DNA of 64,000 nt, taken from contig NZ_QOCB01000097.1 in the NCBI RefSeq assembly GCF_003318165.1, positions 1-64,000 of the forward strand. The letters are read 5' to 3'. Origin of the DNA: Psychromonas sp. B3M02 (GTDB taxonomy: Bacteria > Pseudomonadota > Gammaproteobacteria > Enterobacterales > Psychromonadaceae). The position numbers were made by a program, and so were the translations under genes. Shown piece after piece: positions 3-49,666 of the stretch. Below the pieces are notes generated by a model. It ran no database searches and was not told the origin of the DNA. It was given only the letters and a program-made list of their open reading frames with translations. Within the stretch, counting starts at the first letter, position 1; every line of letters starts with the position of its first letter.

Positions 3-168
3 TTATACCAATCATAGTAAGTAACTGATCTATTTTACTTGTTAAAACAACTTATTTTTTCGTTGTAAGTTTCGTATAGGGAACAACCATTTACATCAAC
101 TTACGCCTCAAACTAAGCCATTTTTCCGGCGCAAAATTTAGATCAGTTATTTAATACAATTGGTATAA
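3..168. repeat. MITE-like inverted-repeat element, copy A
   Basis: The ends are perfect 10-bp inverted repeats, TTATACCAAT at 3-12 and ATTGGTATAA at 159-168, and the match continues imperfectly inward to about 30 bp (AACTGATC near 23-30 against GATCAGTT at 141-148). The reverse complement aligns end to end with a second, diverged copy at 21737-21904. There is no coding potential. It lies just beyond the efpL terminator. The form suggests a non-autonomous miniature transposable element or a family of dispersed intergenic repeats; no transposase is present in the window. The left end is close to the window edge, so a target duplication cannot be judged. Confidence 0.75.
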
Positions 169-265: not shown

Positions 266-832
266 TTAAGCTCGACCCATGAATTTCTTTTCAGTGGTGT
301 TCACTCGGATTTTATCACCCGTTGAAATGTGCTCAGGAACTTGTACTGTTAAACCTGTTGTTAAAATTGCAGGTTTAGTACGCGCCGTTGCAGAACCACC
401 TTTGATTGATGGGTCAGTTTCAGTGATGACTAAATCAACACTTGTTGGTAATTCAACACCCACTGGTGCGCCATCAACGATAACAACTTGTAAACCTTGT
501 GTGTTTTCATCAATGAATAACACTTCATCAGCGATGCTTTCTTTGTTTAAGTTGTATGGCGTGTAGTCTTCATTATCCATGAATACATACTCTTCACCGT
601 CGATGTAAGAAAACATCACATTACGACGGATTAAGTCAGCTAAAGAAAGCATGTCGCTGTCTTTGAATGTTTCATCAGTTTTTGCACCTGTTACCACATC
701 GTACATACGCATGCGGTATAAACTACCTCCAGCACGGCCTTGTGGAACAGAGCGTTCGATATCTTTAATGATGTAAACGCTGTTGTTAAATTCAATCGCT
801 GTATTTTTCTTGATATCACTTGCCTTAGGCAT
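266..832 (-). CDS. efpL: Elongation factor P-like protein EfpL (YeiP)
   Basis: A 188-residue three-domain EF-P paralogue. It should bind between the P and E sites of ribosomes stalled at proline and other difficult motifs and help peptide-bond formation. The KOW-like domain I carries a loop with VPQGR, placing Arg33 at the tip where classical EF-P has its modified Lys34. This Arg and the terminal FMGRA match E. coli YeiP/EfpL rather than EF-P. The usual length is about 190 residues. The ATG is preceded by AAAGGAAAG. It starts 23 bases after tusE ends, so the two are probably cotranscribed and stop at the hairpin at 207-245. No EF-P modification genes (epmA, epmB) are in the window, as expected for an unmodified Arg type. 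Confidence 0.93.
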
Positions 833-20942: not shown

Positions 20943-21599
20943 TTAATCGTCTAAAATACCTAGGATGCTCAATAGGTGAACAAAGATATTAAAGATGTTT
21001 AAGTATAATGAAACCGTTGCACGAATGTAGTTTGTTTCACCGCCATTGATAATACGGCTTGTATCAACCAGTATTAATCCTGACATGATCATAACCACAA
21101 CACTGCTGATCACTAATTGCATTAATGGAATTTGTAGGAAGATGTTAGCAATCATTGCCACCACGACAGCAATCATACCAGCCATTAAGAAGCCGCCCAT
21201 GAATGAGAAGTCTTTACGTGTAGTTAGTACATATGCAGATAAAGCAAAGAAGATAATCGCTGTTGTACCTAATGCTTGCATGATAAGTGCAGGACCGTTA
21301 GCCATTGCCAGGTAGTGATTTAACATATTACCCAGTGACGCACCCATCACACCAGTAAACATAAATACCCAGAAAAGACCTTTACTTGAGTCAGCCGTTT
21401 TTGAAACAACAAACAACAAACCGAAGCCAACTAGCATTAATACTAATGACATCATTGGACCAATGCCTGCCATTGTTGCAATAGTTGCAGTTACTGCACT
21501 AAACGCAAGTGTCATGCCTAACAACATATAAGTATTTTTTAATACTTTATTGATTGAAACTCCAGCACTACCAGTATGAGTGTTAATTGAAGAATTCAT
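20943..21599 (-). CDS. yccA: Bax inhibitor-1 family membrane protein YccA
   Basis: A 218-residue protein with seven hydrophobic segments from about residue 24 to 215 and the BI-1 family ending (YLNIFNIFVHLLSILGILDD). E. coli YccA is a substrate and modulator of the membrane protease FtsH and can protect SecY from degradation when translocons jam. GGAG lies six bases before the ATG. Monocistronic, with its own terminator. In E. coli yccA neighbours tusE; here they are about 20 kb apart. Confidence 0.92.
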   Translation of the reverse strand: MNSSINTHTGSAGVSINKVLKNTYMLLGMTLAFSAVTATIATMAGIGPMMSLVLMLVGFGLLFVVSKTADSSKGLFWVFMFTGVMGASLGNMLNHYLAMANGPALIMQALGTTAIIFFALSAYVLTTRKDFSFMGGFLMAGMIAVVVAMIANIFLQIPLMQLVISSVVVMIMSGLILVDTSRIINGGETNYIRATVSLYLNIFNIFVHLLSILGILDD

Positions 21600-21736: not shown

Positions 21737-21904
21737 TAATAACAATGATATTAAGTAAGTGATCACAATTTTGCGCAGGAAAAATGACTTAGTTCAAGGC
21801 GTAATTTAAGTTAAACAATTGTTCTATTTACGAAAATTACAGCGAAGTAATAAGTTATTTTAACAAATAAAAATTGTTCAGTTACTTAGTGTGGTTGGTA
21901 TTAA
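21737..21904. repeat. MITE-like inverted-repeat element, copy B
   Basis: Aligns along its full length with the reverse complement of 3-168: shared blocks include TTTTGCGC-GGAAAAATG, the AGTT-(A/G)AGGCGTAA region, the AAGTTATTTTAACAA region and CAGTTACTTA near the end, with scattered substitutions. Terminal inverted repeats are decayed (TAATAACAAT against TTGGTATTAA), so this copy looks older than copy A. It lies between yccA and tpiA and does not disrupt a gene. Confidence 0.72.
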
Positions 21905-22099: not shown

Positions 22100-22852
22100 T
22101 TATTTAGCGCCTTCGATGATACCAACAAATTCTTCAATGATTAGTGCAGCACCACCAACTAAACCACCGTCGATATCAGCTTGAGCGAATAGCTCTTTTG
22201 CACTGTTTGCTTTAACACTACCGCCGTAAAGGATTTGTACTTTCTCCGCTACTACTTCGCTTTGTGCATTTAACCATGAACGGATATGTGCATGAACTTC
22301 TTGTGCTTGCTCAGAAGTTGCAACTTTACCTGTACCGATAGCCCATACTGGCTCATATGCGATTACTGAGTTTTCAATTGCAGCAATACCAGCAACGTCG
22401 ATTACTGCTTTTAGTTGTGCTTCAACAACAGCAAAAGTTTTATCAGTTTCACGCTCTTCTAGTGTCTCACCGATACAAAGAACAGGTACTAGACCATTTT
22501 CTTGAATAGCAACAAATTTAGCTGCAACAACTGCATCTGTTTCGTTGTGGTATTGACGACGCTCAGAGTGACCAACTAAGCTGTATTTAGCACCAAACTC
22601 TTTAACCATTACTGGTGAAGTTTCACCTGTGAATGCGCCAGAAACGTTTGTGCTTACATCTTGACCACCAAATTCAATGCTGTTGTTTGCTGTTAAGTTA
22701 GCAACTTGCTCAATGAAGATAGCCGGTGGGCATACTGCAACTTCAACATTGCTCGCTGCATCAGCTGCGCCTTCAATGCCTTTGATTAATGTTGCAACTG
22801 ACTCTTTAGTACCGTTCAGTTTCCAGTTACCCATTACAAGAGGTGTTCTCAT
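22100..22852 (-). CDS. tpiA: Triosephosphate isomerase
   Basis: A 250-residue (beta/alpha)8 enzyme interconverting dihydroxyacetone phosphate and glyceraldehyde-3-phosphate in glycolysis. NWKLNG holds the catalytic Lys, VGHSERR the electrophilic His, AYEPVWAIGTGK the catalytic Glu and phosphate loop, and YGGSVKANS, GGLVGGAAL the remaining phosphate-binding loops. Full length compared with E. coli (255). GGAG precedes the ATG. Single-gene unit with its own terminator. Confidence 0.98.
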   Translation of the reverse strand: MRTPLVMGNWKLNGTKESVATLIKGIEGAADAASNVEVAVCPPAIFIEQVANLTANNSIEFGGQDVSTNVSGAFTGETSPVMVKEFGAKYSLVGHSERRQYHNETDAVVAAKFVAIQENGLVPVLCIGETLEERETDKTFAVVEAQLKAVIDVAGIAAIENSVIAYEPVWAIGTGKVATSEQAQEVHAHIRSWLNAQSEVVAEKVQILYGGSVKANSAKELFAQADIDGGLVGGAALIIEEFVGIIEGAK

Positions 22853-48479: not shown

Positions 48480-48604
48480 AGATAGTTAAGAATAAAAGGT
48501 TACCAGTTGATTGAAAGACCCGAGTAGGGAATGGATGTCATTTATATATAATTTAGCTCCGAGCTTTTATCACTAAGTTTAACATGTTTTTTGTGAAATA
48601 TGTG

Positions 48605-48682
48605 ATACTAGCCGCTTAACTAAGTGTTTGGTTAAGAAGGGTAAACTTAGAAATGGGTTTGCCTCCCGTGTTTGGAAAGGAA
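48605..48682 (+). ncRNA. Moco-type riboswitch upstream of moaA (compact form)
   Basis: The 3' part GCCTCCCGTGTTTGGAAAGG at 48661-48680 matches the conserved core of the E. coli moaA Moco RNA (GCCTCCCGTATCTGGAAAGG). It is preceded by GGTAAAC-ttagaaatgg-GTTTGCC (the conserved hairpin with a GAAATG loop) and by a CTTAAC/GTTAAG hairpin, with CTAGCC at the 5' side able to pair with TTTGG. The whole is about 75 bases, some 50 shorter than the E. coli RNA, and one arm seems to be missing. GGAAAGG also provides the moaA ribosome-binding site, so ligand binding could control translation. Confidence 0.82.
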
Positions 48683-48688
48683 CTGACC

Positions 48689-49666
48689 ATGCAATTAGTC
48701 GATAAATATTATCGAAAGTTTGAATACTTGCGTCTATCGATCACCGATGAGTGTAACTTCAAATGTAATTATTGTTTACCCGATGGTTACCAACGGACCC
48801 ATCAAAAACAATTTTTATCACAAAGTGAAATACAAAACCTAATCAATGCTTTTGCAGAATTAGGTACCAGTAAAGTAAGGATCACAGGCGGTGAGCCGAG
48901 CTTGCGCAGAGATTTCTCTGGTATTATTGAGCAAATCGCCGAGACACCTGGTATTAAAAAAGTGGTGACAACCACTAATGGTTTTAATCTGAGTAAACAT
49001 GCCGTGGATTGGTATCAAGCTGGATTAAGTGCCATTAATGTCAGTGTTGATAGCTTAGATGCCAATACCTTCAATATTATTACCGGTAAGAATATCTTCC
49101 ATAAAGTGATGGAAGGGGTCGACGCGTGCGTAAACGCCGGATTTGATCAAGTCAAAGTCAATAGTGTGTTGATGAAAGGCTTGAATGATAATGACCTTAA
49201 TACCTTCCTTAATTGGATCAAAACCCAACCAATACAACTGCGTTTTATTGAGTTAATGCAAACCGATGATAATAATGATTTTTTTAATCGTTATCACCTG
49301 TCTGGTGAGACCATTAAACAAACCTTATTAGCGCAGCAATGGCAACAGAAACCCCGTGTGATTAATGATGGCCCAGCTGAAGTGTTTTCTCACCCTGATT
49401 ATACAGGTGAGATAGGGTTAATTATGCCCTACAGTAAAGATTTCTGTGATAATTGTAATCGTCTACGTGTTTCTGCGGTGGGACGTTTACATCTTTGTCT
49501 ATTTGGTGAAGAAGGTGTTGATTTAAGACACCTATTACAAGATAGTAAAGATAAAGCAGAACTTAAAAGCACCATCTTAGCCGCTTTAAAAGAGAAAAAA
49601 TCTTCACATTTTCTGGATTTAGGGTTAACCGGTGGGACACCTCATTTAGCCTCTATTGGCGGTTAA
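48689..49666 (+). CDS. moaA: GTP 3',8-cyclase MoaA
   Basis: A 325-residue radical-SAM enzyme that converts GTP to 3',8-cyclo-GTP, the first step of molybdopterin synthesis. The SAM-cluster motif CNFKCNYC, TGGEPSLRRD, and the C-terminal cluster Cys in DFCDNCNRLR plus LHLCLFGE are present, and the terminal Gly-Gly is kept (SIGG). The ATG at 48689, right after GGAAAGGAACTGACC, is the start; a longer frame from 48653 runs through the riboswitch and is an artefact. First gene of a nine-gene Mo cluster. Confidence 0.97.
   Translation: MQLVDKYYRKFEYLRLSITDECNFKCNYCLPDGYQRTHQKQFLSQSEIQNLINAFAELGTSKVRITGGEPSLRRDFSGIIEQIAETPGIKKVVTTTNGFNLSKHAVDWYQAGLSAINVSVDSLDANTFNIITGKNIFHKVMEGVDACVNAGFDQVKVNSVLMKGLNDNDLNTFLNWIKTQPIQLRFIELMQTDDNNDFFNRYHLSGETIKQTLLAQQWQQKPRVINDGPAEVFSHPDYTGEIGLIMPYSKDFCDNCNRLRVSAVGRLHLCLFGEEGVDLRHLLQDSKDKAELKSTILAALKEKKSSHFLDLGLTGGTPHLASIGG

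Follow-up and report, generated by a model that had tools for sequence, protein, structure and literature searches.

What is the short intergenic repeat that occurs twice in the window (the whole stretch of 64,000 nucleotides of Psychromonas sp. B3M02 analysed here), and what moved it there? We take it, with a probability of roughly 0.88, to be a 160-bp type II MITE whose outer 26-30 bp correspond to the ends of an IS630-family IS of about 1.1 kb, whose interior is an unrelated hairpin, and which would be moved by the IS630 transposase. Direct support comes from the family itself, its ends, its target duplication, its empty sites, the ends and footprint that it has in common with the IS, and its recent burst.

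Two copies of a 160-bp element in the window

Contig C80, whose first base is also that of the window, belongs to a draft genome of 3.86 Mb in 156 contigs. An earlier note, made from the sequence alone, had described two copies of an inverted-repeat element here in opposite orientations, and a family model matched exactly these two places, copy A (E 8e-32, match spanning 5-166) and copy B (E 2e-26), the next place having an E value of 0.045. The end-to-end alignment of A and B claimed in that note is real, with 132 identical positions in 168 columns and a score of 227, compared to a maximum of 118.5 among 1000 dinucleotide shuffles. The tips of copy A are TACCAAT (6-12) and ATTGGTA (159-165), and its terminal inverted repeat of 30 bp at 87% identity, as expected of a MITE, tops the list of inverted repeats within 400 bp in the window. 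The ends of A were correctly described as intact and those of B as decayed, B having a single change in each 7-bp tip. The ORF list holds no frame of at least 100 aa over the 160 bp of copy A, in agreement with a short, transposase-free MITE. The length of 166-168 bp given previously describes a real repeat and has to be corrected for the element proper, which is 160 bp (161 bp in B), the outer three bases being duplicated target. The features are as follows.

3-5, no strand: TTA beside copy A, towards the contig edge and not reliable (contig start; C152, C101 and C35 open with the same bases)
6-165, plus strand: copy A without its target bases, 160 bp from TACCAAT to ATTGGTA, read with the T-arm first (limits set from the flanks of 101 interior copies; model match E 8e-32)
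6-31, plus strand: left terminal inverted repeat of A, about 26 bp, common to the IS630 element (inverted-repeat list, arm alignment, arm model)
140-165, minus strand: right terminal inverted repeat of A (inverted-repeat list, arm alignment, arm model)
166-168, no strand: TAA, target duplicate on the right of A (target-duplication statistics)
21737-21739, no strand: TAA flank of copy B, one base off the opposite TTA, a decayed duplication (sequence reading)
21740-21900, minus strand: copy B, older diverged family member, 161 bp (similarity search, alignment, model match)
21901-21903, no strand: TTA flank of copy B (sequence reading)

The left flank of copy A consists of the first 5 bases of the contig, which also open three other contigs, and is not trustworthy. 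The 3' end of ORF 266-832 (minus strand) lies about 100 bp from copy A, with a terminator-like repeat between them. Copy B has a gene 3' end at 22100 and a gene 5' end at 21599 as neighbours; the claim that both copies sit beside gene 3' ends is thus correct for A and for one side of B, and fails on its other side. Elsewhere in the window, a molybdenum/tungsten cofactor riboswitch (48545-48698, plus strand, 85.9 bits) was the sole match at the Rfam gathering threshold.

A family with a recent burst in the genome and members across the order

Copies were sought end to end with the pattern ATACCAAT-N136..166-ATTGGTAT, using the reversed pattern as control. The own genome gave 69 matches per strand, including a copy on contig C79 that was matched twice and one match spanning a run of N, compared to 0 for the control, so that the genome-wide family suspected in the earlier note does exist. 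Among 49 copies with distinct flanks, 34 were the commonest sequence and 47 were at least 99% identical to it; the remaining two were 86% and 83% identical. With copy B as query, most other copies were 80-87% alike, and B groups with the older copies. Because a near-identical set occurs alongside copies of 80-87% identity, we read the family in this genome as an old layer, which includes B, and a very recent burst, in line with the successive bursts that had been suggested.

Many contigs begin or stop inside the element, and the copies at contig ends help to account for the 156 pieces of the assembly. Since flanks less than about 100 bp from contig ends recur with different partners, all work on flanks was restricted to copies well inside contigs. 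A larger composite element, suggested by contig-end flanks common to several copies, was rejected; these short tails were treated as assembly artefacts and excluded. One 4.7-kb contig (G000:C33, L131) carries an IS10-like transposase, a frame resembling chloramphenicol acetyltransferase and, as judged by eye, a ColE1-like origin. We take this contig to resemble a transposon-delivery vector, and the sequenced strain or library was therefore probably manipulated or contaminated.

Relatives also carry the element. Copy A as query found matches in 28 of 60 genomes, and the pattern search gave at least one match in 42 of 99 genomes, some of them by chance (later removed by score). A covariance model was built from 35 copies and applied to 197 genomes of the order, with the best 14 candidates at most scored per genome. 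At E 1e-8, it recognised the family in 54 of the 197 genomes and 12 of 79 genera, including all 13 genomes of the own genus; by our reading of the listing, the matched genomes span eight families. A scan of named records yielded 89 stretches under the titles Vibrio (one merely 'Vibrionales'), Aliivibrio, Shewanella and Aliagarivorans. A variant of 175-176 bp occurs in Aliivibrio and Vibrio (L289, L290, L310, L329, L346, L350, L356), and the extra stretch of the L289 variant sits near the loop. The open literature, which leaves ISfinder and most subscription papers outside, yielded no published description of this MITE family; it was covered for the element's ends, for MITEs of Colwellia, Shewanella, Pseudoalteromonas, Vibrio and Aliivibrio, and for IS630 elements using TNA.

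The element duplicates a 3-bp TNA target

Among 101 interior copies, the 3-mers flanking TACCAAT...ATTGGTA were identical in 76 (TTA 40, TAA 35, TCA 1). The middle base of the flanking 3-mer agreed in 89 of the 101, compared to an expected 43% (p ~4e-21, related copies not being independent). No match was removed by score for this count; in a separate flank count, 11 pattern matches were removed by score and 91 kept. Identical flanking 3-mers were also found in 61 of 73 copies from the named Vibrio/Shewanella-type records; there, the search pattern prescribes the inner base of both 3-mers, which the pattern used for the 101 copies leaves free. The target duplication of the MITE is a 3-bp TNA, mostly TAA or TTA. 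An orientation-fixed TAA tag, considered from the first copies of the own genome (G000), was abandoned in view of the TTA copies.

For eight loci of the own genome, the joined flanks were sought in 12 relatives. In one of these (G018), three of the eight loci were clean empty sites with a single TTA or TAA retained; in the other five, the flanks align with no element between them, at a junction too diverged for exact placement. Target duplications and empty sites thus bear out the description of the repeat as MITE-like. In 6 of 42 copies (L008, L067, L076, L088, L109, L123), the element borders directly on an ORF, of which the TAA of the duplication is apparently the stop codon; compared to a guessed rate, these 6 of 42 gave no significant sign of stop-codon targeting.

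IS630 elements with the same ends and footprint

MITEs alone served to build a model of the two arms, covering their outer 44 bases. All 58 MITE arms have ATACCAAT in common, as preset by the search pattern. In Aliivibrio, the arm model matched a TIR-like end adjoining an IS630-like transposase that is broken. Complete IS630 elements were then reached through similar plasmid DNA, in Photobacterium toruni and in Vibrio sp. HDW18. With their transposase as query, matches at E 1e-5 appeared in 32 of 99 genomes. Complete ISs are 1091-1112 bp long, start with TACCAAT and finish with ATTGGTA; they occur in the own genus, on plasmids, and in a second family resembling Vibrionaceae (G043, G085). Both flanks were present for 15 ISs, and the 3-mers are identical in 11 of these (TAA 6, TTA 3, TCA 1 and TGA 1 in transposase orientation) and differ in four; one further IS lies at a contig edge (L388). 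The IS loci L382, L411-L413, L415 and L416 have no exact TACCAAT pair, and the IS lineage of G019 starts with TACCATT.

The MITE-arm model matched both ends of all eight complete ISs that were compared with it (E 2e-7 to 8e-3), so that the MITE has its ends in common with an autonomous IS. The match covers about the outer 28-43 bases of the IS ends; the interiors of IS and MITE differ, and the element is therefore classed as a type II MITE. Of the two IS ends, the one upstream of the transposase is similar to the G-arm of the MITE (..TGATCTAA) and the downstream one to the T-arm (..AACTGRTCA). Both transposase frames score above the cut-off of 100 of NCBIfam NF033545 (101.6 and 153.1 bits), and DDE_3 is matched as well, which places the transposase in the IS630 family. 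Taken together, an IS630-type transposon probably moves the MITE.

The transposase genes, e.g. L377 at 1371-2406, consist of two overlapping frames joining at a run of seven A. This overlap resembles programmed frameshifting, and the frames are probably joined by a frameshift in the A run. At another locus (L414, G019:C1:1031400-1033300), an IS630 copy sits in the middle of a MITE, forming a 1274-bp composite with matching TAA flanks. In the own genome, the IS survives as a shortened, decayed copy whose two ends can still be recognised (G000:C113, about 724-1594), and the transposase search of 99 genomes found no intact IS of this kind there.

At least two MITE matches occurred in 18 of 20 genomes bearing the IS (E 1e-20 or better), compared to 15 of 79 without it, a correlation that is confounded by genus; outside the own genus, the figures were 3 of 4 and 9 of 71 (p 0.012). 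A close IS was not found in the MITE-rich genomes G022, G056, G076, G095 and G098. Very short ends-only versions of about 45-90 bp lie between TTA and TTA; those below are given with one target base counted on each side (about 47-92 bp).

L344, 2230-2276
L364, 2055-2133
L366, 6119-6199
L328, 2866-2957
L361, 4917-5008

From their structure, the ends of the MITE alone may be sufficient for movement.

A model for mobilisation in trans

We propose that the IS630 transposase, encoded in two frames, would bind TACCAATCnnAnTAAnTAAnTGATC within the 26-bp ends, acting both on its own IS and, in trans, on the 160-bp MITE. It would excise the MITE and then insert it at TNA, mostly TAA or TTA, with duplication of the 3 bp. 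Amplification would run until the transposase is lost, and the decayed IS in the own genome fits this expectation; the burst seen here would have been driven by an IS copy that is now decayed, lost or unassembled. To our knowledge, no mobiliser has been identified for most bacterial hairpin MITEs. Here, a likely autonomous relative with the same ends and an atypical 3-bp footprint is in hand, which makes transposition in trans directly testable.

The interior hairpin

RNAalifold on 35 copies gave 31 pairs, with 93% of cells paired compared to 78.5% in shuffles, shuffle counts, here and below, not being probabilities. The outer pairs are weak evidence because the two ends of an IS are likewise similar. 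Pairing reached 91% in the inner 16 pairs, compared to 68.5% in shuffles, and 143 of their cells were changed on both sides, compared to 46 when shuffled and at most 32 when the pairs were slid. On 42 further copies and one shared row, the same pairs were 87% paired versus 77%. This second set (Vibrio/Shewanella/Aliagarivorans) had 74 cells changed on both sides, compared to 24 shuffled and at most 20 slid, and is only partly independent since Aliagarivorans is probably in both sets. The pair at columns 48-126 of A3 was broken in 25 of 43. We read the inner arms as a hairpin maintained by compensatory changes, so that the alternative of a 'dispersed structured repeat', which the earlier note had set beside the MITE, survives in part. 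The RNA fold had a z score of -6.5 in copy A and -3.3 in copy B. In 80 distinct copies, A-C mismatches read on the top strand outnumbered G-U (91 versus 42 cells, 16 versus 4 pairs), hinting at a bottom-strand RNA tolerating G-U.

It is conceivable, though less likely than not, that the interior, rather than being filler, is a conserved module under selection as RNA (probably of the bottom strand) or as folded single-stranded DNA, spread through eight families by the IS630 subgroup with its unusual 3-bp TNA target. This subgroup would then disperse a structure with a function of its own, such as a mobile terminator or 3'-end module. It is rather unlikely that the element is a structured RNA or single-stranded DNA kept at its sites by selection, as a regulator of the 3'-end or terminator-like kind, its hairpin protecting or processing the upstream mRNA and its spread being secondary. 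Covariation of the inner helix, the fold scores and the excess of A-C mismatches would all suit such a regulator. However, relatives have the orthologous sites without copies, no Rfam family matches the MITE, and the paired changes could equally stem from template switching that corrects an imperfect palindrome. Its orientation to neighbouring genes is likewise not clearly biased: of the gene 3' ends facing an element, 27 were antisense and 22 in the same sense. Of the 42 copies with long flanks, 25 lie between tandem genes, 12 between convergent and 5 between divergent genes, and several copies, judged by eye from the printed flanks, follow terminator-like sequences by a few tens of bases. 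The hairpin may aid transposition, act in transcripts, or both.

Comparison with known systems

The closest known repeats are the ERIC elements (enterobacterial repetitive intergenic consensus; also IRU or RU-1, MITEEc1, MITEPlu5), which are likewise intergenic, full-length imperfect palindromes of high copy number with TACC...GGTA tips and IS630-type relatives. Membership in ERIC is nevertheless very unlikely. The tips TATACC...GGTATA are the same, and ERIC of Photorhabdus is similarly linked to IS630 elements, with duplications of TA, according to PMC6267812. However, ERIC is 127 bp long, compared to 160 bp, and its flanks carry a 2-bp TA footprint rather than the 3-bp TNA found here. The interiors are unrelated, aligning at chance level (386 of 1000 shuffles reach the score), and at 22 ERIC loci the family model gave no match where ERIC lies. 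A single ERIC copy also recurs, flanks unchanged, in two genomes that belong to different families (L267 in G084, L268 in G003), which is read as a recent transfer or as contamination of one assembly.

PIF/Harbinger and IS5-type elements have 3-bp TWA/TNA targets. An origin of the MITE from them, suggested by the identical 3-bp TWA target duplication, is highly improbable: no PF13359 or PF01609 partner with the same ends was found. PF13359 is absent from the own genome and above cut-off in one of 11 genomes, PF01609 in the own genome is confined to one cloning-vector-like contig, and there is an IS630 element whose ends and footprint are identical. Equally far-fetched is a hairpin moved by a REP-associated (RAYT) or IS200/IS605-type single-strand transposase, which would suit a palindromic, intergenic repeat in many copies but leaves no target duplication; here, the 3-bp duplication is genuine, with the middle base matching on both sides, and both TAA and TTA are found in one element orientation.

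YPAL (RU-2) of Yersinia is similar in being about 167 bp long, palindromic and intergenic. According to PMC2229807 and PMC2759123, it lacks 5'-TA termini, has duplications of 3-26 bp and is not A+T-rich, so that termini (compared by eye with the table in PMC2759123), footprint, base composition and sequence all differ from those of the MITE, which does not fit the Yersinia consensus. RUP of pneumococcus is a precedent for assigning a MITE to an IS630 element via common ends; as described in PMC2229807, it is set apart by its 107 bp, its TA target and its host phylum.

The ends of the MITE are those of one subgroup of the IS630 family, within the Tc1/mariner superfamily. PMC10969869 is a general review, and PMC10214660 holds nothing relevant on TNA. 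Studied members of the family, such as ISY100 and IS630, target TA and duplicate these 2 bp, as reported in PMC2170065. In contrast, the subgroup described here, with 3-bp TNA duplications in 11 of 15 IS copies, seems to depart from the TA rule.
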